Made by a program: the position numbers and the translations under genes | The notes under the pieces: model-generated | What the model saw: the letters and a program-made list of their open reading frames with translations, nothing else | The model's database searches: none | Told to the model about the DNA's origin: nothing | From: Paraburkholderia sp. ZP32-5 | GTDB taxonomy: Bacteria; Pseudomonadota; Gammaproteobacteria; Burkholderiales; Burkholderiaceae | Direction: 5' to 3' | NCBI RefSeq assembly: GCF_021390495.1 | Contig: NZ_JAJEJP010000003.1 | Span: forward strand, 1,116,001-1,180,000 | DNA: 64,000 nucleotides | Part shown: positions 4,440-63,403 of the stretch, one piece after another | How the letters are laid out: every line of letters starts with the position of its first letter | Position numbering within the stretch: position 1 is the first letter of the stretch

Positions 4440-4452
4440 GGCCGTCACCCGT

Positions 4453-9982: not shown

Positions 9983-10018
9983 GGGTATGCGCGCCGGTAC
10001 GCGCTCAGGTACGCGTGT
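9983..10018. repeat. 12-bp tandem repeat, three degenerate copies
   Basis: Units at 9983-9994, 9995-10006 and 10007-10018 share the core GGTAYGCG. The array abuts the end of the LysR gene and lies upstream of leuC. It belongs to a set of similar short arrays in gene gaps of this window. Confidence 0.6.
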
Positions 10019-10020
10019 AT

Positions 10021-10983: not shown

Positions 10984-11224
10984 GTTTTTGCTGTCCGGGA
11001 TTGATGGAACTATCGCTGGATGAGTCTCCGGCATGCGCGCAACTACACGTTGCGACGGCTGATGCCGTGCGACGGATTGTACGCAGTCAATATTGTGGAG
11101 GTCGATAGGTCCGCGACGGCGGTGCGATGCGCAGAGGTGCGCTGAAGCAGGCAGTTGATTCCCGCGACGCCTTAACAAGACGCTGCGGGCGATACGTTAG
11201 ACAGATTCCAACGGCAAGACGCTT

Positions 11225-14655: not shown

Positions 14656-14669
14656 GTTGTTCTCCGTTA

Positions 14670-44474: not shown

Positions 44475-45545
44475 TCACCAGAGCCAGCGGCCCGTATCGC
44501 GGATCTCCCAGACCTCGGTGAGATCGTGTCCGGTACCGGTCTCCGCGCGGCTCACGGCGATGCGGCCATTCAGCATGCGCGTGGCCACGACCTGAAGCTG
44601 GAAGAACGCCTCGCGCAGCGCGAGCGTCGGCATATTCAGAAACGGCTTCGGGCCGGCGACGCTCAGCGTCAGATGGCCCGTCGCGATCTGCCGCTGTTCG
44701 ACGGACTGTCCGCATGCCACCGCGAGGCGCGTGAACAGCGTGGCCACCGCGGCAACGTCGTTGCCCGTCACCGACGCGGCGTCACACAGCGCCGGAGTGA
44801 ACTGCACCGCCACGCACGCCGCCGCGGTCTCGCACAGATAGGCAGCGGTGCGCTCGCCGAACATCGCGCGCAACACGCCGACCAGTTCGTCCAGATACCC
44901 TGTCGCATAGTTGCGCGACGCTCGCGCGAGACGCAACGCGGACCACTGCCCTTCAGGCAGTTGCGGCGCTTTTGCCGGATCGAATTCGGGAGACTCGGAC
45001 ACCGCCTCGAAGCGGACACGCTCTTCGGGTTTCAGATCGTGGTCGTATTCGTAGAAATAGCCTTCGTCGTATGGCTCGCCAAATGCGACGGTTTTCGTCA
45101 GCACCCAGCCGAGCCGCGGACAACCCATCAGTTCGCCATTGCGCGGATGCCATGTCGACAGGATGGTCCGGCGTAATGCGATCGGCGCCATCAGCATGGC
45201 CATGCCAGGGTACGAGCCGAGCGGCGCGAGATAGCGTATCCACACCTTCTTCGGTGATTCCTCGATGTAGTGCAGACGCAAGCCGCCGATCGTGTTGCTC
45301 AGATAGTGATACTTGGCGGCGCGCACAGCGGGCGGTTCGGTATCGAGAATGCCGCACTTGCGCGCGCCTTCCAGATACTTGTCCGATTGCTGGCCGAGCA
45401 TTAGCCGCCGCCAGACTTCGCTCGCTACCTCCTCGCCTTTTTCGCGCAGCACGATGCTATGAATGCCCGCATGCAGATACCAGCGCAGTGTGCCGTTCAA
45501 TTCGCATTCGGCAATGCGCGCGGCCTGGTCGTCGTCAAGTGTCAT
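44475..45545 (-). CDS. Unrecognised 356-residue protein
   Basis: I do not recognise this family. The protein has no signal peptide or membrane segments. A conserved-looking centre contains IRYLAPLGSYPGMAMLMAP, STWHPRNGELMGCPRLGWV and GEPYDEGYFYEYDHD (about 105-195), rich in His, Cys, Asp and Glu that could bind a metal or substrate. The C-terminal half is helical and Ala-rich. Codon use and GC pattern match neighbours. The ATG follows GAG closely. It is positioned as the first gene of a two-gene operon with the ALDH7-type dehydrogenase, so it may act on the precursor of that aldehyde; this is inference from position only. Confidence 0.75.
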   Translation of the reverse strand: MTLDDDQAARIAECELNGTLRWYLHAGIHSIVLREKGEEVASEVWRRLMLGQQSDKYLEGARKCGILDTEPPAVRAAKYHYLSNTIGGLRLHYIEESPKKVWIRYLAPLGSYPGMAMLMAPIALRRTILSTWHPRNGELMGCPRLGWVLTKTVAFGEPYDEGYFYEYDHDLKPEERVRFEAVSESPEFDPAKAPQLPEGQWSALRLARASRNYATGYLDELVGVLRAMFGERTAAYLCETAAACVAVQFTPALCDAASVTGNDVAAVATLFTRLAVACGQSVEQRQIATGHLTLSVAGPKPFLNMPTLALREAFFQLQVVATRMLNGRIAVSRAETGTGHDLTEVWEIRDTGRWLW

Positions 45546-49171: not shown

Positions 49172-49357
49172 TCAGAAGGATTGTTTCGCGTGGCCGCAGG
49201 CGGTGTATCGGCATCGCCGCAGCAGGCAAGTCGAGCTTTCGCAATCGACCAGATCGACTCGACAATTGAAATAGCACAATACGGTGCGAAGCATCTCATC
49301 GCAACGCAGATGCAGGTGCATATCGTCCGGGCGACGAATGGTGATCGATTGAGTCAT
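49172..49357 (-). pseudogene. pyrC: Dihydroorotase (PyrC) N-terminal remnant
   Basis: The first 27 codons from the ATG at 49357 read like the start of E. coli-type dihydroorotase: TITIRRPDDxHLHLR is seen here as SITIRRPDDMHLHLR, followed by DEMLRTVL, including the metal-binding HxH. After about 49277 similarity stops, and the frame ends at 49172 without the expected RAIVMPN segment or any later domain. The usual Trp before HLHLR is Met, and DGDML is CDEML. A fair Shine-Dalgarno (GAGGA) precedes it, 26 bases after the amidase stop. This looks like a truncated gene or the scar of a recombination event. Confidence 0.65.
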
Positions 49358-49383: not shown

Positions 49384-50637
49384 TCAAAGACACTCGATAG
49401 TGCGAGCAAGCACGCGTACGCCGAGCATGAAATCATCGATTTCCATCGCTTCGCGCGGGTTATGGGATCCGTTGTCGTTTCGGATAAACAGCATGCCGCT
49501 GGGAATGCCGGCATTTGCGAACAACGATGCGTCGTGTCCTGCGCCGCTGGGAACCGTCTCCCAACGTATTCCGATGTGATCGCATGCGCGCTCGAACGCC
49601 TCGCAGATTCGTTTGTCCATGACTGCCGGTGCGGACTCGATGGCCCGGTCGAATTCGAATGTCACACCTCGCTCGCAGGCGATCGACGAGCACTCGCTCC
49701 GCATGAGCTGATAGAAGCTCTCCAGTGTCTCCCGAGACTCGCTTCTCGCCTCGAAGCTGAAATTGACCGTTTCGGGAATGCGAGAAATCGAATGAACAGC
49801 TGGATCGGTTTCAATGATTCCGGCCGTGACAACCAGGTCGATGCCCCGTTCGAGCAACGCGCGCCAATGCTCATCGAGGCGAGTAATAAGCTGCGCTACC
49901 GCGAATACCGCATCGTGCCGCAGCCAACGGGGTACCGCTCCGGAGTGGCCGGCCTGCCCGATACAGGTCACGCGTTTGTGTCTGACATTACCGCGAATGC
50001 CGGGTACGATGCCGAGAGCAATCTTGCGCGCGACCATCACCGGTCCCTGTTCGATATGCAATTCCAGGTAGGCTTTTGCCTTCGTTTTATCGAACAACAC
50101 TTGCTGGGCCGCGATAGCGACGGTATCGGCTCCAACGTCTTCCATGTAACCTGAAAGTGCCTGGCCCGAGGTTCGATGCCTGAGCTGCAGGTCGTCCGCG
50201 GAAAGCTTGCCGAATATCGCGCTGGAACCGACATATGCCCTGCCGAACCAGGCGCTCTCCTCGCCGCGCAAAGCAATCACGCGCAATGCGGTTTGTGATC
50301 CCATGCCTCTTTGCTTTTGTGCAACGAGACACAAAAGCCCCGCCACGATCCCCGCCAGACCGTCGAAATTGCCTCCCCGCGGAACGGAATCCATATGCGA
50401 TCCAACCCAGACAGCCGGCTGTTCCGGGCCGACGCCCGAAAGGCTGAAGACGAGATTCGCGGCACGATCGACCTCGACGCGCAGGCCCTGCTCCTCGGCG
50501 AATCGTCGCAGATAGTTCGCCGCGGCGGTCTCGCCACTTCCATAGCTATCACGGGTGATGCCTACACCATCGAATGAGAGTGCTCGAATGTCATCGAACA
50601 GCTTTCGCGCAAGTTCGGCGAGATCGACGATTTCCAT
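49384..50637 (-). CDS. Zinc-dependent amidase/hydantoinase-carbamoylase family (M20, HyuC/AllC-like)
   Basis: A 417-residue hydrolase of N-carbamoyl compounds. The two-metal site is intact: His81 (GSHMDSVPRGG), bridging Asp92 (NFDGLAG), Glu126/Glu127 (RGEESAWFG), His194 (ELHIEQGP) and His392 (NGSHNPRE). The family includes beta-ureidopropionase, allantoate amidohydrolase and N-carbamoyl-L-amino-acid hydrolase. The ATG at 50637 lacks a strong Shine-Dalgarno but gives the right length. Its promoter region carries a CTATAA-type inverted repeat also found before the XRE gene. With the neighbouring ring-opening amidohydrolase it could hydrolyse a ureido product. Confidence 0.9.
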   Translation of the reverse strand: MEIVDLAELARKLFDDIRALSFDGVGITRDSYGSGETAAANYLRRFAEEQGLRVEVDRAANLVFSLSGVGPEQPAVWVGSHMDSVPRGGNFDGLAGIVAGLLCLVAQKQRGMGSQTALRVIALRGEESAWFGRAYVGSSAIFGKLSADDLQLRHRTSGQALSGYMEDVGADTVAIAAQQVLFDKTKAKAYLELHIEQGPVMVARKIALGIVPGIRGNVRHKRVTCIGQAGHSGAVPRWLRHDAVFAVAQLITRLDEHWRALLERGIDLVVTAGIIETDPAVHSISRIPETVNFSFEARSESRETLESFYQLMRSECSSIACERGVTFEFDRAIESAPAVMDKRICEAFERACDHIGIRWETVPSGAGHDASLFANAGIPSGMLFIRNDNGSHNPREAMEIDDFMLGVRVLARTIECL

Positions 50638-50959
50638 AAATCTGTCATTCACTAAATTGAGCCGACGACAATCGGGCATTGACGATGAGCGACCACGCTG
50701 AGGATCCGTTTCTCGCCGAGCCTCAACGCGGGAACCACGCGATCACGGTAATAACGCCAGATTTATAGTCAAATATTTGCATTAATCTATAAAATAATAC
50801 GATCGCAAGGTGTTCCGGCATCCCCGATACCAAAGACGAGGGGTAGCGACCGACTCTTTCTGCCAACGGTTCCGCCGAGGCGGACGTAAAACTCGCGAGG
50901 ATAGTCAGTCGTCTTCGCGACGACTGACCGAGAACTCCTTACGCCCGACGCAATGCAAA
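50638..50959. promoter_or_regulatory. AT-rich region upstream of the amidase gene with TTATAG/CTATAA inverted repeat
   Basis: This 322-base gap has no credible gene. TTATAG at 50763-50768 is matched by CTATAA at 50787-50792 (extended TTTATAG and CTATAAA). The half-site starts are 24 bases apart. The same half-sites occur 14 bases apart upstream of the XRE regulator gene (59391-59410), exactly one helical turn less, which suggests a common DNA-binding protein. Confidence 0.5.
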
Positions 50960-51277
50960 CTACTTTAGGGACGCTCGATGAGCGGCAAAATTGTTGAGTG
51001 CGTCGACAAATGCGGTATCGGACTCACCACTTGCCTTCTTCAGCGCGGTTGCGTGCGCTCGCATCTCCATCAAAAACTCATGGACGAGCTCCGCACTGAC
51101 AGCGGTATCCGCATGCATATCGACGAACTCGGCGATACGCTCGGCCAGCAAAACAAGCGCCGCGGAGTCGCGTTCGGCGCGTTGAGCACCGGACCAGCAT
51201 TGCTTCGCGAATTCCCGGAGTTCCGAGAACCCTGCCCGATCGCGTTCCAGCCACACAGTCGCAAGAAGTAAGTCCAT
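50960..51277 (-). CDS. Small helical protein, 105 residues, unknown
   Basis: A short coding frame with AAGGTGA before its ATG. The product is almost wholly alpha-helical by eye (FSELREFAKQCWSGAQRAER and VHEFLMEMRAHATALKKASG) with no signal peptide or known motif. An overlapping frame on the other strand (50978-51271) has a weaker case: its residues lack pattern. It lies between the amidase and the ring-opening amidohydrolase operon, facing the amidase. No function is proposed. Confidence 0.55.
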   Translation of the reverse strand: MDLLLATVWLERDRAGFSELREFAKQCWSGAQRAERDSAALVLLAERIAEFVDMHADTAVSAELVHEFLMEMRAHATALKKASGESDTAFVDALNNFAAHRASLK

Positions 51278-51698
51278 GTCGTCACCTTTTTCTAAAAAAA
51301 AAGATTAGCTTCATCGACGCGGATTAGCAATATCTGTCAAAAAAGACCCAGCTTACGAAGGGCCGCGCGCTCAAACACTGAGCGCGCCAGCACCGCTTCT
51401 ATCGATGCAACAGCATGCATGTCAATGAGATTCCCCATTCATTTTTGACGCAGGCATGCTGTACGAATCTGGCCCGCCGGAGCACACGCGAGCAGGCAGA
51501 CGAGCAGCGGCAAACGGGCACTACGTTGGACAGTACGCGAGGCCGGCGCGGCAGCTTTTTTGGTTGCTTGACATAGTCTCATAAAATATCCAGTATCTAA
51601 AAAATATGCACAAACAGCGGCGTGCCGCCCGATGAGAAGACCGGCGCACACCTCCTCGCTCGCGGGTGCGTCGTTGATACGGGAAGGAGATCGGGCGG
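51278..51698. promoter_or_regulatory. Divergent control region of the ring-opening amidohydrolase operon
   Basis: The 421-base gap is AT-rich and without a convincing gene. A perfect -35 TTGACA (51568-51573) with a 17-base spacer leads to CAGTAT (51591-51596), a fair -10 for the plus-strand operon. GCGCGCTCA (51365-51373) and TGAGCGCGC (51379-51387) form a perfect 9-bp stem with a five-base loop. Read on the minus strand it is followed after about 20 bases by a six-U run (51344-51339), so it could act in the leader of the small gene. Confidence 0.5.
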
Positions 51699-52859
51699 AT
51701 GAGTATTGGTGTAATTCGATTTGAAATGTCGACGCCGGCAGACTGCGCGGCGTTATTAGCCGTGCTGGAAAGCATCGATGCCAGAAGAGCGTCGCGGCTC
51801 GCCATCATCGCCAAAACCGAAGGGACAGCCACGGTTAACGATTTCGGACGCTCGCTCGCGACGCTGGCCATACAGACCGCGCTGGAGCGGGCGAACGTCA
51901 CCGCGCCGTGCCAGGTGATTCTGTCGATGGGTTGTGAAGGGATCATCACGCCGGGCGGATATTTGTTTGTCGACATGCCCGAGCGCGATGACGGTATCGA
52001 AGGACTTGCGCTCGGCATGGCGTATTCCGATCCGATGGCGCCGTCGGATCTCGTCAACGATCGACACATCGCCATTACTCGCGCCACTGTCGACCGAGCA
52101 ATCGCCGATGCCGGAATCGGCGCGAAAGACGTTGCATTGGTCTTCGCGAAATCACCTCTGCTTACTCACGCAATGGCCGCCGGTTTGCCTGCCGAGGCGC
52201 GCGAGCGTGCCAACAGATCCTCGGCGGCCAGAGCCGCGGCGGCGCTCGGCATCGGCGTCGCGCTCGGCGAGATCGCAGCCGATGCCGCCAACAGTGCCGC
52301 AATCGGCAGACGCGCCGATCTGTACTCGCGTCGCGCGATGGTGTTCTCCGGAACCGAGACCGCGCGCACCGAGATCATCGTGCTCGGCAATCGTCCCGGT
52401 GAACACCAGAGTGTTCGAAGCGGTCTGTTCGCCGATTTGCTGGACGTCGACAGCATGGCGGCAGTGATCGCCGGAACTTCCGGCGAGCCATTCCAGGCCG
52501 TCCGTCGAATGAAATCCGGCGGCCATCTCGCGGCCGTCTTCCTGAAGGCCGGTCTTGCCGCCGACGGAAAACTACGCGGCAACCGGACCACCGTGTTCTC
52601 CAGCGAAGTCGATCCCGACAAGCAGATGAGAGCGGCTGCCTCAGGCGTGTTGGGATCCCTGCTGGGTGACACGCGAATGTTCGTGTCCGGCGGCGCGGAA
52701 CATCAAGCGCCGATGGGAGGCGGAGTACTGGCTGTTATCTCCGCAAGCGAAACCCCGTGGGGCGGCCACGACCAGATCGCGTCTCGAACCTCTGGCCCGC
52801 ACGCAGCAGCGATTCACCCTGGTGCCGCTCGCACTGACACATCGATAAACCACAAATGA
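51699..52859 (+). CDS. Ring-opening amidohydrolase, cyanuric acid amidohydrolase/barbiturase family
   Basis: A 386-residue enzyme with the rare three-repeat fold of AtzD/TrzD and barbiturase. One Ser-Lys pair per repeat is visible: Lys39 (AKTEGTATVNDF) with Ser76 (ILSMGCEG), Lys151 (FAKSPLLT) with Ser217 (MVFSGTE), and Lys283 (FLKAG) with Ser330 (FVSGGAEHQAPMGGG). These hydrolyse a cyclic ureide-type ring such as cyanuric acid or barbiturate. AAGGAG precedes the ATG. It is slightly longer than characterised members, with a C-terminal tail. It is translationally coupled to the next gene (ATGA overlap), and an AtzA/TrzN-type amidohydrolase and tripartite importer follow. Confidence 0.9.
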   Translation: MSIGVIRFEMSTPADCAALLAVLESIDARRASRLAIIAKTEGTATVNDFGRSLATLAIQTALERANVTAPCQVILSMGCEGIITPGGYLFVDMPERDDGIEGLALGMAYSDPMAPSDLVNDRHIAITRATVDRAIADAGIGAKDVALVFAKSPLLTHAMAAGLPAEARERANRSSAARAAAALGIGVALGEIAADAANSAAIGRRADLYSRRAMVFSGTETARTEIIVLGNRPGEHQSVRSGLFADLLDVDSMAAVIAGTSGEPFQAVRRMKSGGHLAAVFLKAGLAADGKLRGNRTTVFSSEVDPDKQMRAAASGVLGSLLGDTRMFVSGGAEHQAPMGGGVLAVISASETPWGGHDQIASRTSGPHAAAIHPGAARTDTSINHK

Positions 52860-53809
52860 TCAAAATCATCGAAGACCAGGAAGTTCAAACCCTCGTGAAT
52901 TGCGCGGACGCATTCGAGGTAATCCAGCAGTGCTATCGGGACGTTGCCTGCGGAAGAGCGTCGGTGTCGCAGCCGTCGGCCATGACGCTCGCCAGTGTCG
53001 CGGGCGCTCAGGCGACGTTCAAAACCAAAGGCGCGATTCTCGACAATCTGAACGTCGCCGGATTTCGGCTGGTTGCCGACTCCAATGTTTTGTTGGGCGA
53101 TGGTACTTCCTATGTCTACCTGATGAGTCTCGACGCCGCGGCGCCCATCGCTTTCGTTGGAGAGAACTGGTTGCACAGGTTGCGTACGGCGTCGAGCGCG
53201 CTGGTCGCCTGCCGCAAGCTGGCTGCACCCACGGCATCGACACTCGCACTGATCGGAACCGGGCGAATCGCGGAGCAGTTCGTTCGTATCGTCGATTCGC
53301 AGTTCCCGGGCCTTCGCATCATTCTCAGCTCGCGTTCGGCCGAGCGTGCCCGTAGCACCGCGCAGCGATGGAGCGCACTGACGTCGAACGAGCTTTCCGC
53401 GGCGAACAGCATTGCCGAGGCCGTGGCCGCGGCGGACATCGTGGTGACGTTGTCCGATGCCGACGAGCGCCTCTTCAAGGCGACCGATCTCAAACCCGGC
53501 GCGCTCGTCTGCTCGCTCGGCGGCCAGCATGAGTTCGACGTCGACGTGCTCGAGGCCGCGGACAAGTTCGTTGTCGACGAAATTGATTTCGTCTGCAATG
53601 CCGGAAACGGCGCTCATTGGATTGAATCCGGACAGATCACACGCGAACGAATGGAGCAACGAGTCGACGCGACGTTGGGTGAGCTGTTGTCGAGCAACCA
53701 GCCTCGCACCGGCAACGGCATCGTTCTAGCCATCGTGCAGGGCATGGCCGTTTGCGACATTGCGTTGGCGAAGCTCGCCTACGATCGTGCGATCGAGCGC
53801 GATCGTTGA
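52856..53809 (+). CDS. Ornithine cyclodeaminase/mu-crystallin family protein with altered active site (third of three)
   Basis: A 317-residue protein with the family NAD-binding segment STLALIGTGRIAEQFVR (128-144) and the LHRLRTASSAL block with Arg110. The substrate-binding Arg near position 40 is replaced (SVSQPSAM), and the usual Lys near position 70 (GVK in paralogues) is Arg71 (AGFRLVAD). The other two copies in the window keep both residues. It may reduce an imine without the normal deamination or have a different substrate. It is co-translated with the ring-opening amidohydrolase, an unusual partnership. The Shine-Dalgarno is weak, consistent with coupling. Confidence 0.85.
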   Translation: MIKIIEDQEVQTLVNCADAFEVIQQCYRDVACGRASVSQPSAMTLASVAGAQATFKTKGAILDNLNVAGFRLVADSNVLLGDGTSYVYLMSLDAAAPIAFVGENWLHRLRTASSALVACRKLAAPTASTLALIGTGRIAEQFVRIVDSQFPGLRIILSSRSAERARSTAQRWSALTSNELSAANSIAEAVAAADIVVTLSDADERLFKATDLKPGALVCSLGGQHEFDVDVLEAADKFVVDEIDFVCNAGNGAHWIESGQITRERMEQRVDATLGELLSSNQPRTGNGIVLAIVQGMAVCDIALAKLAYDRAIERDR

Positions 53810-53885
53810 GCCCCAGGCAAGCCCCGACCTCTACCGTCAACGCTCCAGAATCGTTGCACGGGTTTTCTCGACCGGAAATCGAATC

Positions 53886-54851
53886 ATGACCAAATTGCTT
53901 CTGTCGCGCCGTCGCCTGCTGAAGGGAGCCACCGCGCTAGGCGCCATGGCGGCCCTGACGCGCAACGTCAGCTTTGCTGCTTCTACCTATCCCGAGCACG
54001 ATCTGCGCTGGGTCATCTATCAGGCGCCCGGTGGCCTGATCGACGGATCGACGCGTGCGCTGCAGCCGTTCCTCAAACAGCATGGATTTTCCAGCACCGT
54101 CGATTACGTGCGTGGTGCATCCGGCCGTATCGCCCGCACCCAACTTTATCGCGCCCACCCCGATGGACTGACGATCATGACTGAAGCCAGCCCCGAGGAG
54201 GTGCTCGGCGAAGTCATCTACGGCGCTGAATACAAGGTTGCGGAATTCCAGCCCGTATACGGCTGGTTCCGCAATGCGTTCAACATCTGCGTGCTGAAGA
54301 ATTCGCCGTTCAAGACATTCGCCGATCTCGTCAACGCGGCAAAGTCGCGCAAGGTGACGATCGGCACGCTCGGCAAAGGCGGTCCGAGCCACTTGCAGAT
54401 GGCGATACTCAACAAGCAGTTTGGCCTGAAACTGCAACTGGTTCATTTCGACGGCGCCGCGCCGGCCTATGCGGCCGTCGCCGGCGGACATGTCGATGCC
54501 GCGATGGGCGGCTCGACTTCGGTCCAATGGTCGAGCACGGTGAATTTCCTCGTCGTCTTTCGCAACGGGCGCGATCCAGCTCTGCCGGACGTTCCCACCG
54601 CCAAAGAATGCGGTTACGACATCGTGCCGGTCAACGAGGTGATCTATGCGAACGCCGGCCCGAACGTGCCCGCGGACCGGATCAAGAAGCTCTCCGACGC
54701 CTTCGCCGCGGCGCTGGCCGACCCGGCCGCGATCGAGGCGCAAAAGAAGCTCGGCATTTTCATCGCGCCGATTACTCCGGCGGAGCTGCGGCAGTCGATC
54801 AAGAGCCTGTATGCGCTGGTCGACGAATATAAAAGCGATCTGCTCGGGTAA
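53886..54851 (+). CDS. Tripartite tricarboxylate transporter substrate-binding protein (TctC/Bug family)
   Basis: A 321-residue periplasmic receptor with a Tat-like signal (SRRRLLKGATALGAMAAL near 7-24). The fold shows DLRWVIYQAPGGLIDGSTRAL, FADLVNAAKSRKVTIGTLGKG and a C-terminal VPADRIKKLSDAFAAALADP, as in Bug proteins. It delivers its ligand to the TctBA membrane unit encoded next. The ATG at 53886 follows GGA. Bug proteins bind carboxylates, amides and nicotinate-type compounds. Its position after the ring-opening amidohydrolase suggests the operon's cyclic substrate or a breakdown acid. Confidence 0.88.
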   Translation: MTKLLLSRRRLLKGATALGAMAALTRNVSFAASTYPEHDLRWVIYQAPGGLIDGSTRALQPFLKQHGFSSTVDYVRGASGRIARTQLYRAHPDGLTIMTEASPEEVLGEVIYGAEYKVAEFQPVYGWFRNAFNICVLKNSPFKTFADLVNAAKSRKVTIGTLGKGGPSHLQMAILNKQFGLKLQLVHFDGAAPAYAAVAGGHVDAAMGGSTSVQWSSTVNFLVVFRNGRDPALPDVPTAKECGYDIVPVNEVIYANAGPNVPADRIKKLSDAFAAALADPAAIEAQKKLGIFIAPITPAELRQSIKSLYALVDEYKSDLLG

Positions 54852-54860
54852 GCGAACACC

Positions 54861-55313
54861 ATGTCCCAGCAAAACCGGCATCCGGCTCCGGCCCTCGGCG
54901 AGCGCATTTTCGTGGGCGTGATCGGACTGGTGTTCGTGATCCAGTTCGGCCTGGCGATGTCATACCCGGCCGACCCACGGCTCTTTCCGCTGATCGTTGC
55001 CGCGATCGGTGTGAGGCTCGCCATCGCGACGCAGATTCGCGGACGCGAAAAAAAGCCGCCGCGGGCGCCGGAGCCGATTGCCCCGAGGCGGCTGGCGTTG
55101 GCACTGATCGTGCCGCCGCTGTACGGCGTCGTGCTTTGGGCACTGGGCTTCTGGATGGCGACGATTCTGGCCATTCCGGCACTGTCGCTTCTGCTCGGAT
55201 ATCGCCGCTATTTTCTTATTCTGCTCGTCACGCTCGGCATGGCCCTCGCTGTCGGCCTGCTTTTCCCCGTCGTCAATATCACCGTTCCGCAGCCCGCGTT
55301 GTTTGCCCACTAG
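54861..55313 (+). CDS. Tripartite tricarboxylate transporter small membrane subunit (TctB family)
   Basis: A 150-residue protein with four hydrophobic segments (about 14-35, 38-55, 78-98, 105-145), typical of TctB. It couples the large membrane subunit and the receptor in a sodium- or proton-driven importer. YPADPRLFPLIVAAIGVRLAIA is a family hallmark. It lies ten bases after the tctC-like gene. Confidence 0.87.
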   Translation: MSQQNRHPAPALGERIFVGVIGLVFVIQFGLAMSYPADPRLFPLIVAAIGVRLAIATQIRGREKKPPRAPEPIAPRRLALALIVPPLYGVVLWALGFWMATILAIPALSLLLGYRRYFLILLVTLGMALAVGLLFPVVNITVPQPALFAH

Positions 55314-55408
55314 TTTTGCGCTGCGGTGCGCATTGCGATGCCGGCCGATCCGATCCATTTTGCGAAAACTGATTCAACCATGTTCATGCGTCAAGGGTGG
55401 TGAGCACT

Positions 55409-56914
55409 ATGTTGCATCTCCTTCTCAACGGCCTCGTCACCGCATTGCAATGGCACAACCTGGAGGTCATCGCACTGTCCACGCTGCTTGGTTTGTGGAT
55501 CGGCGTGATTCCGGGTTTGGGACCGGTAATGGCAATGGCCATCCTGTTCCCCTTCACTTTCTTCATGGAGCCGCTGGCTGGCCTGCTGATGCTGGCCAGC
55601 ATCCATGTCGCGGGAACCTATAGCGGTTCGATCAGTGCCATTACGATCAATGTTCCCGGCGATCCGGCATCGGCGGCGACTACGTTCGACGGCTATGCGA
55701 TGGCCCGTCAAGGCAAGGCGCGCGTCGCGATGGGCATCTCCATCACTGCCTCGTTTATCGGTGCGCTGGTCGGCTCGTTCACGCTGATCGCCGCGTCGAA
55801 GCCGCTTGCCGCGGTCGCGCTGCATTTCGGACCGGCCGAGAACTTCGCGCTGGCGGTCCTCGGCCTGTGCGTCGTTGCCGCCGCATCGACCGGCTCCACC
55901 AGCAAGGCGTTGTTGATGGGCGCACTGGGCCTCGCGATCAGTTTCGTCGGCACCGACGATGTCCTCGGGTATCCGCGCTTCACGTTCGGCTTTGTCGAGC
56001 TCGAATCGAAGATCGGCTTCGTCCCGGTGCTGATTGGTTTGTTCGCGGTCGCGGAACTGATGCATCTGATGGTGGCTGGCGGCAAGATCTCCGAAAGCGG
56101 CCAGTTGCACGGCCGTCTGTCCGATGGTGTCCGCGAGGTATTCAGGCACCCCGCCGCGCTCGCTCGCGGCTCGCTCATCGGTGTGATCTGCGGCGTCATC
56201 CCCGGTGTGGGCGCGGTCACCGCCAACCTGCTCGCGCACATGTTCGAAACTCGGGTCGCGCGCGAGCCTGGACGTTTCGGCAAGGGCGCGCCGGAAGGCA
56301 TCATCGCTCCGGAAGCATCCAATAACGCATGCGTCCATGCGGCGCTGATCCCCACGTTGACGCTAGGCATTCCGGCCAGCGGCGGCACCGCGCTGGTGCT
56401 GGTGGCGGTCACGATTCACGGATTGCGGCCTGGCCCGATGCTGTTTTCCAGCCAGCCCGACCTCGTCTACGGGTTCTTCGCCGGCATGCTGGTCGGGGCT
56501 GTGCTGTTTACCGTGTTCGGTCTGCTGTTCGCGCGATGGCTCGCGTTGATCACGCTTGCGCCCGCCCCGTTGCTCGTTCCGTGCCTGCTGGTCGTCAGCC
56601 TGATCGGCGCTTACGCCTATAACCAGAGCTTCCTCGATGTCGCGTGGGCAGTCATCTTCGGCGTGGTGGGTTTCATGGCACGGCGATACGGATTTCCTGT
56701 CGTCGGGCTGGTGATGGGACTGCTGCTCGGCGGGTTGACCGAGACCTCGTTCCATCAGTCGCTCGAAATCAGCGACGGGTCCTATCTGATCTTTCTGCAG
56801 CAGCCGATCGCCGCGACGATCCTCGGGCTTGCCGCCTTGCTGGTCGTCGGATCGGGCCTGCTGGACGCACGCTCACGCAAGGCCCTGAGCGTGGCGAATC
56901 TCGACGAGGCATAA
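55409..56914 (+). CDS. Tripartite tricarboxylate transporter large membrane subunit (TctA family)
   Basis: A 501-residue carrier with about twelve hydrophobic segments. The stretch GLWIGVIPGLGPVMAMAILFPFTFFMEP, GTYSGSISAITINVPGDPASAATTFDGY and PEASNNACVHAALIPTLTLGIPASGGTALVL are the family's repeated G-x-P-G and N-A signatures. It forms the transport channel with TctB and takes ligand from TctC. The ATG at 55409 is chosen because GGTGGTGAG lies just before it; four codons upstream a GTG is also in frame. It lies two bases before the amidohydrolase gene, strongly suggesting one transcript. Confidence 0.93.
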   Translation: MLHLLLNGLVTALQWHNLEVIALSTLLGLWIGVIPGLGPVMAMAILFPFTFFMEPLAGLLMLASIHVAGTYSGSISAITINVPGDPASAATTFDGYAMARQGKARVAMGISITASFIGALVGSFTLIAASKPLAAVALHFGPAENFALAVLGLCVVAAASTGSTSKALLMGALGLAISFVGTDDVLGYPRFTFGFVELESKIGFVPVLIGLFAVAELMHLMVAGGKISESGQLHGRLSDGVREVFRHPAALARGSLIGVICGVIPGVGAVTANLLAHMFETRVAREPGRFGKGAPEGIIAPEASNNACVHAALIPTLTLGIPASGGTALVLVAVTIHGLRPGPMLFSSQPDLVYGFFAGMLVGAVLFTVFGLLFARWLALITLAPAPLLVPCLLVVSLIGAYAYNQSFLDVAWAVIFGVVGFMARRYGFPVVGLVMGLLLGGLTETSFHQSLEISDGSYLIFLQQPIAATILGLAALLVVGSGLLDARSRKALSVANLDEA

Positions 56915-56916
56915 AC

Positions 56917-58425
56917 ATGAACAACGCAATGAAACCTCTACTGCTATCCGGTGCTCGCGTGTTCCGGCACGACGGTGACCTCGACAAGCCGGCGGTCGCC
57001 GACGTGCTGGTCGTCGACGGCAGAATTCAGGCAATTGGTCCACTGGCAGCAAACATGCGCAGCGACGCCGAGGTGATCGACCTGGCCGGCCATCTGCTCA
57101 TTCCGGGTTTCGTCAACGCTCACTATCACTCGCATGACGTACTGGCGAAGGGTTGTTTCGAATCGCTGCCGCTCGAGCAATGGGGATTGATCGCCGGGCC
57201 GATCGCCAATCATCGCAGCCTCGAGGAAATCCGCCTGCGCACGCTGCTTGGCGCGATCGAGGCCCTGCGCAACGGTGTCACTACAGTGCAGGATTTCAGC
57301 TCGTTCGCGCCGATGGAGGATCGCGTCGTCGACACGATCCTGGATGCGTATCGCGAAGCCGGACTGCGCGTCGTTTATTCGATCACGGTGCGTGACCGTT
57401 CGCAGCTCGCGACCATCCTCGATGCGCGAGAAGTGGTACCGCCGGAACTCCATGCACTGGTCGGCGAACACGCCGAGGAGCCCGCAGGGCAACTGGCATT
57501 TGTCGAAAAGCAATTGTCGCGGGTGGGCGACCGGGATGGCATGGTGATCTGGGCGCTCAGCCCATCGGCGCCGCAGCGCTGCTCACCGCAATTGCTTGCG
57601 GGAATGGCCGAACTCGCGAACAGACATCGCTTGCCCGTCTACACGCACGTGTACGAGTCGCGCTCACAGCGCATATTCGCTCAGCGGCACTTCGCGCAGC
57701 ACGGTGGCTCCGTGATCCGCTACATGGAGGAGCATGGTCTCGTTGGCCCGCACGTCAACATTGCGCACGGCGTGTGGCCCGATGACGCCGAGATCGGGCA
57801 TCTGGCGCGCACCGGCACCGGCGTGGTTCTCAACATGCTCAGCAACCTGCGGCTGCGCAATGGGGTTGCGCCCATCGCGGCATACCGGAACCTCGATGTT
57901 CGACTTGCGCTTGGTAGCGACAATTGCAGTTGCTCGGACATTCACAGCATGTTTCCCGTGATGAAGATGTACTGCCTGCTGGGCGGGATCAGCGACCCGA
58001 ACGAAGCGGCGCCCCTCGCGGCCGAAGCGATGAGGCTCGGAACGTCCGGCGGCGCGCGCAGCGCCGGCAAGGACGATGAACTGGGCGCCATCGAGCCGGG
58101 AATGCGAGCGGACCTCGTAGCGCTCGACCTGAACGATCCGGCGTACCGGCCGCTGCATAGCGTGGTCCGCCAGATCGTCTTTGCGGAAACCGGCCGCGCG
58201 GTGCGGCATGTCTGGGTCGACGGCCGTCAGGTTGTGCGTGACGGGAAATCGGCCTGCGTCAACGAAGCAGGTCTTATCGAGGACATGACGCGCCTCATGC
58301 CGGCAGTCATCGAGAAACTCGATCGGCTACGGGCCGATTCCGACAGGCTGTCGCCGTTTTTTGCGGAACTTCAGCGCAGGGCATGGGCGCATCCGGTTCC
58401 GTACAACCGTTATCTGCAGCGCTAA
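56917..58425 (+). CDS. Amidohydrolase-family deaminase/chlorohydrolase-like protein (AtzA/TrzN/SsnA type)
   Basis: A 502-residue metal-dependent hydrolase of the subtype used for guanine, cytosine and s-triazine derivatives. Metal and catalytic residues are His69, His71 (FVNAHYHSH), His244 with Glu247 (YTHVYES), His284 (NIAHGVW) and Asp335 (LGSDNCSCSD). The C-terminal ADLVALDLNDP and VWVDGRQVVRDGK close the composite beta-sandwich domain. It would remove an amino or similar group from a heterocycle, feeding the ring-opening amidohydrolase upstream. It begins two bases after the tctA-like gene and is the last gene of the operon. Confidence 0.9.
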   Translation: MNNAMKPLLLSGARVFRHDGDLDKPAVADVLVVDGRIQAIGPLAANMRSDAEVIDLAGHLLIPGFVNAHYHSHDVLAKGCFESLPLEQWGLIAGPIANHRSLEEIRLRTLLGAIEALRNGVTTVQDFSSFAPMEDRVVDTILDAYREAGLRVVYSITVRDRSQLATILDAREVVPPELHALVGEHAEEPAGQLAFVEKQLSRVGDRDGMVIWALSPSAPQRCSPQLLAGMAELANRHRLPVYTHVYESRSQRIFAQRHFAQHGGSVIRYMEEHGLVGPHVNIAHGVWPDDAEIGHLARTGTGVVLNMLSNLRLRNGVAPIAAYRNLDVRLALGSDNCSCSDIHSMFPVMKMYCLLGGISDPNEAAPLAAEAMRLGTSGGARSAGKDDELGAIEPGMRADLVALDLNDPAYRPLHSVVRQIVFAETGRAVRHVWVDGRQVVRDGKSACVNEAGLIEDMTRLMPAVIEKLDRLRADSDRLSPFFAELQRRAWAHPVPYNRYLQR

Positions 58426-58448
58426 AGGTTGCCGCGCAGGTATCCGGA

Positions 58449-59360
58449 TCAGGAGCGCTGCAGCAGTTCACGGAGCAGCGCGGCGCCCTCCTTGCCCTTC
58501 GCCGCTCCCGCCCAAAGCTGCTGGATCAGCCCTCTGTACATGTTGATCGCATCCGGAGATGTCGTGATCGTCGCGATGCCACTTCGTATATTGGGCATCT
58601 CGCCCAGGCGGAATGGCGACACCGCGACATGCGTTTTGCCAGCTTCTTCGAAGATCTGGAAATTCTCGTTCGGCACGTTGTCGCTGACGATACCGATCTG
58701 GATGCCGACGGGCTCGCTCTCGATCAACTCGATCATGTGCATCACTTCATCGCGAGCCGCAATCTTACGTTCGAGCTGTTGACCGGGCGGCAGATTCAAC
58801 TTACCGACCAGACCATGGTGAAGGAACTGCTCGACTTGACGCAGTCCGATCAGGCTCAAAACACCAGGGCGTGTTGCCTCGAAGCTCTTTCTGCGCTCGC
58901 TCAGAATTTCCAGCACCCTGTCGACCTGATACTTCGAAGCGTCATCGACCAACGCTTCCGGCACGTTTTCTTCCAGCATCTTCCGCAGGAAGCCGCTGTA
59001 GGCCCGCGACGTCAGCAGGAAAGAAATCGGATCGAAGTTCGCCAGCACTCGGACACAGCGACTCTCCAACTGGCGCATCCGCTCGAAATAGCTGACCGCG
59101 TTGTTGTGATACTCGGCCTCGATACCGAGCAGATTCTGCAGACTGACACCAAGCAGGTTGGCGAGTCGGCCTAGTGTTTCTATCTTGACGATTTCGCCGC
59201 GCTCGAGCTTGTACACCGCGGCGCGGGAAATGTTCAATCTATCCGCAATGTCGTCGGAGCGGAGCTCTTTGCCCAGGCGATACGCACGCAGGCGCTCCCC
59301 GATGTCCGCAAAGTCCACTGAGACGGGTGCTGGCTCAACTTTTGGGCCGCGTTTCGCCAC
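58449..59360 (-). CDS. XRE-family helix-turn-helix transcriptional regulator
   Basis: A 303-residue regulator. The HTH lies at about 18-75 (IGERLRAYRLGKELRSDDIA, NISRAAVYKLERGEIVKIE and RLANLLGVSLQNLLGIEAEY). The large C-terminal part, about 80-300, is of unknown fold; SGIATITTSPDAINMYRGLI near the end suggests a ligand-binding role. The GTG at 59360 follows CAGGA by six bases. It converges with the amidohydrolase gene and faces the porin across a 335-base gap, so it is the probable regulator of the ring-opening amidohydrolase operon. A TTATAG-CTATAA repeat lies upstream of it. Confidence 0.85.
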   Translation of the reverse strand: MAKRGPKVEPAPVSVDFADIGERLRAYRLGKELRSDDIADRLNISRAAVYKLERGEIVKIETLGRLANLLGVSLQNLLGIEAEYHNNAVSYFERMRQLESRCVRVLANFDPISFLLTSRAYSGFLRKMLEENVPEALVDDASKYQVDRVLEILSERRKSFEATRPGVLSLIGLRQVEQFLHHGLVGKLNLPPGQQLERKIAARDEVMHMIELIESEPVGIQIGIVSDNVPNENFQIFEEAGKTHVAVSPFRLGEMPNIRSGIATITTSPDAINMYRGLIQQLWAGAAKGKEGAALLRELLQRS

Positions 59361-59695
59361 TATTCGTCCTGTATACAAAAATAAATCAGATTATAGCGTC
59401 CGGGCTATAAGAGGAAAAGAAAGATCCGACAACGCGTGTCGTTCGGGCTTTTGGGCGACATCGTTATATATTTTTTTATCATTGTCGTTTTTTTTGAACG
59501 ATGGCAGCATCAATTCGTGGAACGGGTGATACGGCCGTTGACCTCACCGCGCGCAGAGAAAGCGCATTCGGCGGAGGGCAGCTGAATTTTCAACCTTCGA
59601 TCATTCCGCGAAGCAACAGGTTTGCGACTGTTCCAAATGGGTGGAGTTTCGGCAAACGCATGAGCATTCCAAATCATTAAAATTGGAAAATACAA
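59361..59695. promoter_or_regulatory. Divergent control region between XRE regulator and porin
   Basis: AT-rich 335-base gap without a gene. TTATAG (59391-59396) and CTATAA (59405-59410) form an inverted repeat 31-50 bases upstream of the XRE start. GTATAC lies at 59371-59376. Just before the porin start, TTCCAA (59667-59672) can pair with TTGGAA (59683-59688), which includes part of the porin Shine-Dalgarno. Confidence 0.5.
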
Positions 59696-60886
59696 ATGAA
59701 AAGAAATTCAATGGCGGCAGCGATTCTCGCGGCATTTGCGCTGCCCGCCTATGCACAGAGTAGCGTGACCCTCTACGGCGTTATCGACGAGGGTCTTCAA
59801 TTCAACACCAATGCCAAAAACGTAGTGAACGGCCACAACGTTGGAGGCAGACTGTGGAACCTCGATTCGCTCTCGGGCCCATGGGGCAGTCGCTGGGGTA
59901 TCCGCGGAGTCGAAGACCTCGGCGACGGGCTAAGTACGGTCTTCGCTCTTGAATCCGGCATCAACATCAATTCCGGCGCGTTTGGACAAGGCAACACGCC
60001 CTTCGGGCGCCAGGCCTACGTCGGCCTGCGCAGCCGGCACTACGGCGGCATCCTGCTAGGCCGGCAGTACGACAGCATCGCCGATTACGTCGGATCGTTC
60101 ACCTTCGGTCTGGCCGACTACGGCAATGCATTGAGTCACCCGGGCGATCTCGACAATGCGGCACACAATTACCGCATGAACAATTCGATCAAGTACACGT
60201 CCCCGGACCTGAACGGTTTGACTTTCGGCGGACTGGTCATGGTCGGCGGAATCGCCGGCTCGGTATCACAGAATAGCGGCTATTCGCTTGGCGCCGGCTA
60301 CCACCGTGGCCCGCTGGCCCTGGGTGTGGCTTATCAGATGTTCAAGAATCCTTCCAGCATCGGCGGCGCATTGAATGGCAACGCAAACGCCGTCGCGCCA
60401 ACCAGCACGTCGATTTTCGGCTCCATCAATTCGGGCTACCTGAGCGGCGCGCATCCTGCAACGTCATGGCAGGTTGCCGGCATCGGTGGGTCGTACAACT
60501 TCGGTCGAATGCTGCTCGCGGCTGTCTATTCGAACATCCGTTACGGGAACATCGGTAACTTCAATGGAGCGACGGCGACGTTCAACGATGTGGAAGTGAA
60601 CGGAATGTACCGGTTCACGCCGACGATGTTCGTGGGGCTCGCCTACAACTATATGAAGGGCAACGCGGTCTCGGGAGACATCGGCGACCAGACGTATCAC
60701 CAGGTTGAGGGGTTTGCGGATTATCTGATCTCGAAACGTACGGATGTCTATCTGTCTGCCGCTTATCAGCTCGCGCGCGGGACCAACTCGTTAGGCGCAC
60801 CGGCTGTCGCGAACATTTCACTGCAGGGTGACTCGTCAAATGACCGCCAGGCGCTTTTCCGCGTCGGCATCCGTCACAAGTTCTGA
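59696..60886 (+). CDS. Outer-membrane porin, Burkholderia OmpC/gram-negative porin type
   Basis: A 396-residue porin. The signal peptide (about 1-21, ending AYA) precedes QSSVTLYGVIDEGLQFNTNA. GPWGSRWGIRGVEDLGDG and FGRQAYVGLRSRHYGGILLG are family strands, and the chain ends in Phe (GIRHKF). The last loop carries a longer insertion than in the other two porins of the window. A weak GGA precedes the ATG inside a possible hairpin. It sits between the XRE regulator and an MFS gene and probably serves entry of the same compound. Confidence 0.93.
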   Translation: MKRNSMAAAILAAFALPAYAQSSVTLYGVIDEGLQFNTNAKNVVNGHNVGGRLWNLDSLSGPWGSRWGIRGVEDLGDGLSTVFALESGININSGAFGQGNTPFGRQAYVGLRSRHYGGILLGRQYDSIADYVGSFTFGLADYGNALSHPGDLDNAAHNYRMNNSIKYTSPDLNGLTFGGLVMVGGIAGSVSQNSGYSLGAGYHRGPLALGVAYQMFKNPSSIGGALNGNANAVAPTSTSIFGSINSGYLSGAHPATSWQVAGIGGSYNFGRMLLAAVYSNIRYGNIGNFNGATATFNDVEVNGMYRFTPTMFVGLAYNYMKGNAVSGDIGDQTYHQVEGFADYLISKRTDVYLSAAYQLARGTNSLGAPAVANISLQGDSSNDRQALFRVGIRHKF

Positions 60887-61288
60887 AGCACCGGCGGGCG
60901 ACTGCCCGCCTGAATCGTTACCCTGCCGCGATGGTTGATCTTGCCGCGCCCGGAATACCGGCCGAACCCACTACGCCGTCGTGCGCCTCGTCGACACGAG
61001 GCGCCGGATTACCGGCCCGCGGTTTTGGGGACTCGCTCCTGATCACGAAAGCACTTAGGCAATCCGCCGCAATGGCTTCACGATAATCAAGCGCGAAGGC
61101 CGCCCGCGCGGGCATGACTGCATTGCGGGGCGGCGCGACGATGACCATTGCGGCCTCGTCATTGGCAGGAGCGGCGTGGCGCCAGTGGCAAGCCACGCTT
61201 GCGGTGCTTCGTTCGTTGCAAGCAACGTACATCGCGTCATTGAATCGCGGCGGGCGGCTCGATATCCTTCGATCTGCCATGAACCACT
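60887..61288. other. Intergenic region with terminator-like hairpin after the porin gene
   Basis: The stretch between the convergent porin and MFS genes. GGCGGGC (60893-60899) and GCCCGCC (60904-60910) form a perfect seven-base stem with a four-base loop, seven bases past the porin stop, without a following U-run. A 120-codon minus-strand frame (60918-61280) shows no recognisable motif and is not called. Confidence 0.5.
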
Positions 61289-62539
61289 TTAATCCAGGGC
61301 TTTACCCTTCAGCTCCGGAATCAGGAATAGTGTCGCGATCATATCGAGCACATAGAGACTCGCCAGCAAAGCTATTGCAATCTGAAACGAGTAGCGGGAT
61401 GCGAGGGAACCGACCACGACCGGACCGAAAGCACCCACCGATCTGCCGAGATTCCACAGAACGTTCTGCGCGGTAGCACGCGCCGCGGTCGGATAGACTT
61501 CGGACATCAATGCTCCGTAACCGCCTATCATCCCGTTGACGAACATGCCCATCAAGGCGCCAGCCCAAAGCATGACAGTGGGATCATTGAGGCGCGCATA
61601 AACCAGTACCATCACAACCGCGCCGAGTTGATAAAGCAGAAACGTTGGCTTGCGGCCAATGCGGTCGGCGAGGTTTCCGAAGATGCAAACGCCAACCATC
61701 ATCCCAAGGATCGTTACGGCGGTCCACAAGCCTGATTTACCGAGCGAAAAGCCCATTTGTTTCGACAGGAACGTGGGTAGCCAGATCATGATTCCGTAGT
61801 AGCCGAAATTCTGCACGGCGCACAGTATGACGATCCCGATGCTGACGCGAGTCGTGCGGGCGTCGGCAACCAGTAGCCTGAATGTGTTCGGTTTCTTTCT
61901 CTCGGCGCGGGCGGTACGAGTGAACAGTTCGGGCTCGTGCAGCTTGCGACGCATGATCCACGCGCCTACGGCCGGCACCACGCCGATCACGAACATCCCT
62001 CGCCAGCCGATATGGGAAATAAGAAGCGGCGTCAGCACGGCAGCCAGAAGCACGCCACATTGCGCGCCGAGGGCGACATAGGAGGATACGCGCGCGCGCA
62101 TGTTGGCCGGCCAGGCTTCGGCGGCAAGCGCCATGCCGATACCGAACTCTCCACCCAGACCAATGCCGGAAATGGTTCGATAGGTGAGAAGATCCCAGAA
62201 ACCTCGGGCGAATGCGCAAAGGGCCGTGAAGATCGCGAAGACCAGAATCGTCCACGCCAATACACGGACACGCCCGAAATGATCGCTCAATGCACCGAAG
62301 ATAAAGCCGCCCAGCACAGTACCGATCAGCGTCCACGTGACGAGCGCGCCACCTTGCGCGCTGGTGAGTCCCAGCGACACCGTGATAACCGGCATCATGA
62401 ACCCGAGAATGATCAGATCGAACCCGTCCATCGCGTAACCGATGGCCGAACCGGCGAGGACTTTCCACGCATAGGCACTCACCTGCTCCCGCTCGCCTTC
62501 AGGGGTCTGCGCTACCGACGATTCCATATTTGCTTCCAT
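61289..62539 (-). CDS. MFS transporter, aromatic-acid/metabolite:H+ symporter-like
   Basis: A 416-residue twelve-helix carrier. GYAMDGFDLIILGFMMPVI in helix 1 has the MDGFD motif of the AAHS/MHS-type carriers, GALSDHFGRVRVLAWT (near 85-100) and GNLADRIGRKPTFLLYQ (near 295) are the loop signatures, and GIGLGGEFGIGMALAAE is typical of helix 4. Such carriers import organic acids or heterocycles with protons. The start at 62539 has GGGGA upstream; ATG four codons later is also possible. It is beyond the porin and convergent with it, so it could belong to the ring-opening operon's uptake set. Confidence 0.85.
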   Translation of the reverse strand: MEANMESSVAQTPEGEREQVSAYAWKVLAGSAIGYAMDGFDLIILGFMMPVITVSLGLTSAQGGALVTWTLIGTVLGGFIFGALSDHFGRVRVLAWTILVFAIFTALCAFARGFWDLLTYRTISGIGLGGEFGIGMALAAEAWPANMRARVSSYVALGAQCGVLLAAVLTPLLISHIGWRGMFVIGVVPAVGAWIMRRKLHEPELFTRTARAERKKPNTFRLLVADARTTRVSIGIVILCAVQNFGYYGIMIWLPTFLSKQMGFSLGKSGLWTAVTILGMMVGVCIFGNLADRIGRKPTFLLYQLGAVVMVLVYARLNDPTVMLWAGALMGMFVNGMIGGYGALMSEVYPTAARATAQNVLWNLGRSVGAFGPVVVGSLASRYSFQIAIALLASLYVLDMIATLFLIPELKGKALD

Positions 62540-63403
62540 GAGTATCCCCGAGCCATCAGGCTCCGCCGAAGGTCTCATCGACCATCTATTCAATAATCTA
62601 TTTTTTTAGAACGCGTGCCCGCGACAAGGCCGTTTACAAGGAGACGACGCGAGCATTACAGCGGCACTTTTTCTACGTACCCAAACCTTCGCAATACAGC
62701 CCGCGAGCTCGCCAGGGGCGAGATAAACAGAACGATCCGACAACAAGGAGTGCCGCGATGCCAATGCCCCGCAAAACGGCAGGCCCGCTACCTTCCCCCG
62801 AAATCTGGCGGCCCGGCGCAACTGGAATTCCGGTAGCAAACATCACGAGCACTGGTCGAACGCCGTCGCGGAAACGTACCGCGGGCTCGCTGATATCGAC
62901 ACGAGCGAGCGGCATTTCCGGCTAGCTACGCGCGGCAAATAACACGGCGCAAGTCTGCTTGCGCGCATAGTCTACATATTTAGACTACCGGCAAGTCCCA
63001 GTTCTTGCAAGCCGAAAAAAAATCAATGGATGAGCCGATAGCCGACGTGCTGAATGGCCGTAGAGCGCGCGGATCATGTCGATGGCGGCAGGTCTCCGCG
63101 CGGAGTTCAACGAGTTTGACTGTCTGGAGAAACTGCGGTGATGCGGGCACCGGTTGCCGAGGTGCCTGGTTCTTGGTTCTTCCTGCCGCCAGAATATTTA
63201 CCAGCCTCCGAAAGTGGTCACGTGCCTGTCGAACCTGAGCGGTCCCACAAGCACGTTTTTCAGCAAGCTCTTCCTGGTAGGAATGGGGTCGCTTGGCAGA
63301 TACGCAACGACACGGTTTTCGTTCAGCTTGTGGTCCCCGCGCGACGCAGCCTGTTCGCCCTTCTTCGGCGAAGCGTGCTTCGCCTTATAACAGGACGCGG
63401 TCC
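62540..63403. other. Intergenic region of 864 bases, no convincing gene
   Basis: I see no frame with family motifs or a good start signal. TAGTCTA (62968-62974) and TAGACTA (62981-62987) form a seven-base perfect inverted repeat around a six-base spacer, resembling an operator. GGCGAAGC (63367-63374) and GCTTCGCC (63377-63384) form a hairpin near the 3' end of the gene that begins at the right edge. An AT-rich segment lies at 62590-62610. Confidence 0.4.

Follow-up and report, generated by a model that had tools for sequence, protein, structure and literature searches.

Which compound is opened by the ring-opening amidohydrolase encoded in a 64,000-nucleotide stretch of the Paraburkholderia sp. 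ZP32-5 genome, and to which pathway does it belong? An earlier note on this stretch (contig NZ_JAJEJP010000003.1, positions 1,116,001 to 1,180,000 of the forward strand; hereafter the window, with coordinates counted from its first nucleotide) had proposed a candidate N-heterocycle degradation system at 49384..60886. It comprised a ring-opening amidohydrolase (ROA), a deaminase-type metal amidohydrolase (AmiH), an M20 amidohydrolase, a tripartite TctCBA importer, an NAD(P)-dependent enzyme of the ornithine cyclodeaminase/mu-crystallin family (OCD), an XRE regulator and a porin. All nine genes are present at these places, and each scores above the cut-off of its main Pfam family. The locus has the appearance of an orotate-type operon in a second, diverged copy, in which the ring-reducing and ring-opening genes have decayed and another ring-opening gene and an oxidoreductase gene have been gained. 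We consider the odds somewhat better than even that the substrate of the ROA cassette is orotate, or a carboxylated cyclic ureide close to it, whose ring is opened and whose products lead to aspartate.

Kinship with an orotate-type operon

A search for orotate phosphoribosyltransferase (OPRT) located an orotate-type operon elsewhere in the same genome (C3:704000-723000; loci L111 and L149). On one strand it encodes a porin, a major facilitator superfamily (MFS) importer, DHODB, dihydroorotate dehydrogenase (DHOD), an M20 amidohydrolase, the dihydroorotase PyrC, AspA, OPRT and a malic enzyme, and directly beyond it lie an XRE regulator and a small conserved protein, orf105. PyrC and AspA exceed the cut-offs of TIGR00856 (446.1 vs 292.95 bits) and TIGR00839 (692.3 vs 681.2 bits), respectively. 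From this gene content we infer breakdown of orotate through dihydroorotate, N-carbamoyl-aspartate and aspartate to fumarate; a ureidosuccinate route is known from clostridia. The related operons L143, L144 and L146 contain XRE, orf105, porin, MFS, DHODB, M20 and PyrC; DHOD was called in L143 and detected by tblastn for L144 and L146 (in L115 and L117), AspA occurs in L143, L144 and L145, and OPRT in L144 only. L145 further holds MFS, DHOD, M20 and PyrC, with no XRE or orf105 in the stretch covered.

Four genes of the window are kin to this operon, and MFS and XRE have their nearest relatives among the proteins of orotate-type operons. M20 (49384..50637, minus strand; start set by homology, the open reading frame opening at 50679) is 76% identical to the L111 protein and exceeds the cut-off of NF006771 (PRK09290.1-5; 404.5 vs 399 bits). 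The MFS importer (61289..62593, minus) shares 72% with that of L111 and 72, 71 and 75% with those of L143, L144 and L146. XRE (58449..59378, minus) is 70% identical to the own-genome copy in L149, 71, 69 and 67% to L143, L144 and L146, and 51% to locus L002. Between M20 and ROA lies orf105 (50960..51277, minus; no family above its cut-off in the Pfam scan), which shares 55% with the L149 copy and 55, 49 and 45% with L143, L144 and L146. XRE and orf105 are intact open frames.

Using the proteins of the own-genome operon as tblastn queries, MFS, a DHOD remnant, M20 and a PyrC remnant were recovered, all on one strand and with their relative order unchanged. The DHOD remnant comprises 59 codons (60951..61127, minus; residues 73-131 of 375; 52.5% over 59 aa, E 4.5e-14), and the 120-aa open reading frame around it (60918-61280) matches Pfam DHO_dh with E 3.2e-5 and 23.7 bits, below the cut-off of 27. 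The PyrC remnant comprises 29 codons (49271..49357, minus; residues 1-29; 82.8% over 29 aa, E 2.6e-9; 59-83% to five PyrC proteins). Its first codon follows the M20 stop codon after 26 bases, where PyrC lies in intact operons. The whole unit thus spans 49271 (PyrC remnant) to 62593 (end of MFS), and the boundaries first drawn around the nine genes were too narrow on both sides. OPRT was not found in the window by tblastn; the genome has two copies elsewhere.

Between the positions of DHOD and M20 sit the cassette and a porin. The cassette is a plus-strand run (51699-58425) of ROA (51699..52859), OCD (52856..53809, its start overlapping the ROA stop by 4 bp; PF02423, 99 bits), TctC (periplasmic receptor type; about 53886..54851; PF03401, 94.6 bits), TctB (small membrane part; 54861..55313; PF07331, 38.4 bits vs a cut-off of 29.1), TctA (large membrane part; 55397..56914; PF01970, 445.6 bits) and AmiH (56917..58425). 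The genes from ROA to AmiH share a strand, as the earlier idea of a single transcript implies; M20 and XRE lie on the opposite strand and therefore fall outside it. To judge by its 28-31% identity to the porins of L111, L143, L144 and L146, the window porin (59696..60886, plus; Porin_4, 149.7 bits) is not an orthologue of the orotate-operon porin. Orotate-type operons have DHOD and PyrC where the window has ROA and OCD, and no relative of TctCBA or AmiH was seen in them. The window as a whole has a G+C content of 0.633, compared with 0.624 for the cassette operon, 0.58 for M20, 0.55 for the gap between M20 and ROA and 0.565 for XRE-porin; Paraburkholderia plasmids match 1.1 kb of the window at 86-87%. 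The cassette was probably inserted into the operon, rather than the operon being assembled around it.

The type of M20 was followed through a genus sample (97 genomes among the matches listed; 30 M20 loci compared). All five loci at least 67% identical to the L111 M20, one of them the own operon (L113), have DHOD and PyrC beside it; the 23 loci at 43% or less have neither. By identity the window M20 belongs to the former group, its DHOD and PyrC neighbours surviving as remnants only. Judged by operon content, it would be an N-carbamoyl-aspartate amidase.

Could the presence of the cassette in a decaying, redundant operon be accidental, its substrate being an unrelated heterocycle and M20, MFS and XRE mere leftovers? 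Two operon genes are indeed reduced to remnants while an intact copy exists in the genome, and this type of ROA is patchy, being the sole match above 40% identity in 398 genomes of the family. Against this, the reading frames of M20, MFS, XRE and orf105 have stayed open, with 55-76% identity to their counterparts in the intact operon, and ROA and OCD accompany M20 in seven other places, in other families or classes. Chance landing thus seems quite improbable.

The ring-opening amidohydrolase and its branch

ROA belongs to the Toblerone-fold family of ring-opening amidohydrolases (PF09663, 240.9 vs 25 bits; TIGR02714, 163.9 vs 153.1 bits). It falls short of the NCBIfam equivalog CyanAcHdlAtzD (224.1 vs 360 bits), and in the tree its branch is separate (support 100/100) from the four cyanuric acid hydrolases (CAH) and the barbiturase that were placed. 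The tree set consisted of rows longer than 300 aa (loci) or of at least 320 aa (proteins), and later classification of rows longer than 250 aa.

The key residues of ROA are K39, R51, S76, K151, R178, F216, S217, K283, D307, R311 and S330. The earlier statement that all three Ser-Lys pairs are present does not stand: K39, K151, K283, S76 and S330 are present, but F216 takes the place of the domain-B serine (AtzD S233, Azorhizobium CAH S226), with a serine only at the next position (S217). The alignment is ungapped at this point, and the internal S-x-G-x-E repeat agrees with the register. Phenylalanine occupies the position in 131/131 rows of the branch alignment, with tyrosine in one branch row found later (L104), and aspartate occupies AtzD position 321 (D307) in 69/69 rows of the clade; Phe216 and Asp307 mark the branch. 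ROA also retains the three arginines by which CAH binds the ring oxygens.

ROA and AtzD/TrzD-type CAH are 30-34% identical in the structural alignment, and ROA further differs in having glycine for the metal ligand Glu298. Of the CAH signature R195/T321/R325/G345/G346, as given in an excerpt of PMC3758960, ROA matches four of five positions (R178/D307/R311/G331/G332), with 321 differing. The Ser226/Lys156 dyad, termed absolutely conserved in CAH in an excerpt of PMC4051656, corresponds to F216/K151. Barbiturase (PDB 5hwe) has fold and family in common with ROA; it lies on the CAH side of the tree, and its signature N/H/K/V/S reads R/D/R/G/G in ROA. The neighbours of ROA (OCD, M20, Tct) differ from the atzDGEHF operon of CAH as set out in a passage of PMC6219798.

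As to which serine is catalytic in CAH, excerpts of two papers disagree, one arguing for Ser226-Lys156 (PMC4051656) and the other for Ser85-Lys42 (PMC3758960). The ROA branch is a natural experiment on this question, as the counterpart of Ser226 is gone and the Ser85-Lys42 pair stays. Because the domain-B serine has been lost naturally, catalysis in the branch might rest on the domain-A (S76-K39) or the domain-C (S330-K283) dyad, a reading which we weigh below together with the pathway.

The second amidohydrolase, AmiH (PF01979, 148.7 bits; 54-56% to relatives in f13, another family of the same order), is nearest to the TRZ/ATZ deaminase group and below every NCBIfam cut-off shown, including that of 8-oxoguanine deaminase (NF006055, 212.1 vs 532 bits). 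In the alignment it keeps the HxH, H, E, H and D motifs of the deaminase type. Its sequence matches in the PDB are two chains named only amidohydrolase, followed by 8-oxoguanine deaminase/hydroxydechloroatrazine ethylaminohydrolase and AtzA chains.

These matches would suit a route in which AmiH deaminates an s-triazine or pyrimidine, ROA opens cyanurate or barbiturate and M20 takes the ureido product, as would the placing of ROA in the AtzD/TrzD family by Pfam and TIGR02714 and its CAH-like residues at positions 195, 325, 345 and 346. We hold such a route to be highly unlikely, given the CAH equivalog score, Asp at 321, Phe for the domain-B serine, the distance of the branch from all five characterised members placed, and the lack of any match to the Pfam amidase family of AtzE/AtzF among the nine genes scanned. 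A plain s-triazine or barbiturate operon was rejected because of profile cut-off, signature residues and tree. That the system is a catabolic one for N-heterocycles other than the standard s-triazine operon, as the earlier note had it, is well supported, because ROA fails the CAH cut-off, lacks the CAH and barbiturase signatures and recurs with OCD in other lineages.

In three loci, two different ROAs of the new branch lie within about 10 kb of each other (L002:1-1077 and 3921-4970; L104:6643-8181 and 14554-15552; L054:6921-8564 and 9959-11035), suggesting two ring-opening activities in one pathway.

Recurrence of the branch with partner genes

The comparison of gene order called for by the earlier note revealed that the ROA branch recurs with OCD. 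An OCD gene was found in the flank of 16/17 loci of the branch vs 0/68 loci on the CAH side. The single exception, L076, is a shorter entry for the place that L104 covers in 20 kb, where OCD is present; merging the double entries (L027/L054 and L076/L104) gives 15/15 distinct places, other lineages included. Flanks were 1.5 kb on each side for most loci and up to 20 kb for some; the CAH-side set includes divergent rows (L016, L019, L032, L038, L057) and doubles such as L077/L107 and L080/L108, and the count excludes, among others, L028, L029, L041-L043, L046 and L047. Genes in relatives' loci were called with a home-made caller, which missed some genes and misplaced some starts; OCD was uncalled in L048 and L051, and tblastn detected it in L020 and L024. 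All seven OCD sequences compared contain the FKxK and RxRTA motifs. The window protein has PF02423, a Rossmann domain and the Lys/Arg motifs in common with BhcD iminosuccinate reductase, ketimine reductase and SbnB, and it reaches the cut-off of none of the NCBIfam models listed.

M20 accompanies the branch in 8/16 distinct places (the window, L002, L004, L104, L049, L052, L053 and L055), and in the seven outside the window it adjoins OPRT, in L004 with a PyrC fragment between. This fragment (L004:7388-7720, residues about 3-113) is a second dihydroorotase fragment beside the ROA branch. Three relatives from the contig search carry the branch at 47-53% identity. L002, a Rhodospirillales bin, encodes a second ROA, an amidase, LysR, ROA (53%), OCD (56%), OPRT, M20 (55%), DHOD, DHODB, XRE (51%) and a Mo-hydroxylase. 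L004, a Rhizobiales bin, has an ABC importer, ROA (48%) and OCD, then OPRT, the PyrC fragment and M20 (53%). L003, a Hyphomicrobiales bin, has an ABC importer with an NMT1-type receptor, ROA, OCD, a second such receptor and a Mo-hydroxylase, with no M20 in 12 kb. In L104 (genome G1330, same phylum) ROA, TRAP DctM, an amidase, LysR, OCD, a second ROA, OPRT and M20 lie together. The family f13 is a genome group carrying the branch; its long stretches (L049, L052, L053, L055) contain OPRT, M20 (53-54%), AmiH (54-55%), ROA (38-39%) and OCD (31-32%), an amidase called in 3/4, and TctC-type receptors around them. The f13 loci L048-L063 are crowded with such receptors, which account for the majority of the 34 proteins in one blast cluster. 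Importers of the branch thus vary between TctCBA, TctC, ABC and TRAP. The cluster OPRT exceeds its NCBIfam cut-off in L053, L104 and L002, and is one of two strong copies in the genome of L002 (G1501) and in G1330.

No intact PyrC was found in any of the ROA-branch stretches (tblastn with genus PyrC queries, E < 0.05), a search that other dihydroorotase types, or genes beyond contig ends, would escape. This absence, together with the survival of DHOD in L002 and the supply of DHOD by the own-genome operon (L111), would fit a narrower role in which ROA replaces dihydroorotase only, opening dihydroorotate to N-carbamoyl-aspartate, with DHOD acting in trans or encoded nearby (L002) and OCD serving another step. 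The own genome, however, also has an intact PyrC, and a redox enzyme of the OCD family, unneeded for a redox-neutral step, lies near ROA in all 15 distinct places. We regard such a role as rather unlikely.

This type of ROA is rare. In the phylum sample, PF09663 occurs in 14/398 genomes; classification of the loci from every one of these placed the window's own in the branch and no other. In a sample of the order of G817, 67/397 genomes match, and among the loci classified (of at most 30 listed) only G1330 belongs to it. A Paraburkholderia protein representing a 90% cluster, P0014, is 89% identical over 58% of ROA. In PLSDB 130 records match, all below 60% identity; among the 40 matches listed most are annotated as cyanuric acid amidohydrolase and the rest as ring-opening amidohydrolase.

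A proposed route for orotate-like acids

Starting from a diverged second orotate-type operon, with DHOD and PyrC lost and the ROA-OCD-TctCBA-AmiH cassette in their place, we propose the following route. MFS, TctCBA and the porin would import a carboxylated pyrimidine-type cyclic ureide, and AmiH would strip an amino group where one is present, as in an amino-pyrimidine acid upstream. ROA would then hydrolyse one ring amide to give an N-carbamoyl C4-dicarboxylate; orotate, cut at N3-C4, would yield 2-ureidofumarate. The OCD-family enzyme would reduce the C=N or C=C bond and M20 remove the carbamoyl group, in either order, releasing aspartate, CO2 and ammonia, under probable regulation by XRE. 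Substrate, products, order of steps and regulation are those we infer from the gene set, which also fits the earlier suggestion that ring opening would precede cleavage of a ureido product.

N-carbamoyl-aspartate is the expected substrate of the M20 in orotate-type operons, and the ring product would therefore be this compound or its dehydro form. The operon setting favours a pyrimidine carboxylate over an s-triazine or barbiturate. Because the intact operon is kept in the genome, an analogue refractory to DHOD and PyrC is at least as likely a substrate as orotate. The three kept arginines would suit two carbonyls and a carboxylate, and the altered domain B and Asp307 an unsymmetrical ring. 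The main support for the proposed route is the remnants together with the kinship of M20, MFS, XRE and orf105; it does not rest on the count of M20 in 8/16 places.

The same M20 product would arise if ROA acted like carboxymethylhydantoinase on a five-membered ring: 5-carboxymethyl- or 5-carboxymethylidene-hydantoin would then give N-carbamoyl-aspartate or its dehydro form, and M20 would complete the route. The orotate setting fits this equally, and by its TIGR01879 score (282.4 vs 204 bits) M20 is a member of the hydantoinase/carbamoylase subfamily. However, the activities described for the Toblerone fold in excerpts of PMC4051656 and PMC3758960 are on six-membered rings, and in relatives an OPRT gene next to M20 indicates orotate, which makes a hydantoin unlikely.

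Several observations weigh against the proposed opening of orotate or a close analogue. A second route for orotate itself would be superfluous while the own genome retains an intact operon, and AmiH alone has no role in orotate breakdown. OCD scores 72.1 bits against a cut-off of 500 for the BhcD iminosuccinate reductase model NF045643. M20 was not found in 8/16 places of the branch (L003, L048, L050, L051, L054, L056, L062, L063); most of these stretches are short or end beside AmiH or ROA, and L054 spans 20 kb without it. Among genus M20 loci, those at 52-55% to L111 (L118, L119) have an orf105 relative and neither DHOD nor PyrC. L002, the only branch stretch with an intact DHOD, keeps this gene, and ROA might therefore replace PyrC alone. 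The cluster OPRT of f13 may be housekeeping, because it is the only OPRT found in G012 and G301; the L003 genome has weak matches only. Since this ROA type is rare, the supporting evidence is drawn in large part from metagenome proteins and from metagenome bins, which may be contaminated. A structure of the same fold, PDB 5hy0, is titled "orotic acid hydrolase", which speaks for the proposal; on the other side, it is 27% identical to ROA, and the tree was built without its sequence. We take it to be from Frankia and of group V. The group V signature, as printed in an excerpt of PMC3758960, differs from that of ROA.

In the open-licence PMC literature we found no paper joining these gene families or describing the opening of orotate by a Toblerone fold, and the combination of a known fold with known partner families in this operon setting is likewise without a paper found there. 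The proposal would supply a concrete substrate class for a large branch within a rare fold, on which that literature yielded no assay, and the locus would present a pathway replacement with its debris, the DHOD and PyrC stubs, still in place. Together these features suggest a new route for breaking down orotate-like pyrimidine acids. It is possible, though on balance doubtful, that hydrolytic opening by a Toblerone fold with saturation or amination by an OCD-family enzyme replaces DHOD and dihydroorotase in more than one proteobacterial lineage and that the branch works with its domain-A or domain-C dyad, the two being judged jointly.

Minor observations concern neighbouring and related clusters. 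Another cluster of the genus (L147:4902-10995 and L148:9002-15068) combines an XRE relative (33%), an ABC importer and M20 (52-55%; two open reading frames in L148), with an orf105 relative beside M20 (L118, L119) and without DHOD, PyrC or ROA. In another genome of the family (L058:10122-13631), a CAH-side ROA lies near an AmiH relative (33%) and genes clustering with ABC-type genes, possibly a further variant. Within the window, 44475-45545 encodes a 356-aa protein without a Pfam family, a 43% relative of which lies near the own-genome orotate-type operon (L111:4086-5159). The aldehyde dehydrogenase at 42912-44417 scores 784 bits with the NCBIfam model of L-piperidine-6-carboxylate dehydrogenase (cut-off 730), and the run of genes to which it belongs also includes an acyl-CoA ligase and MmgE/PrpD.

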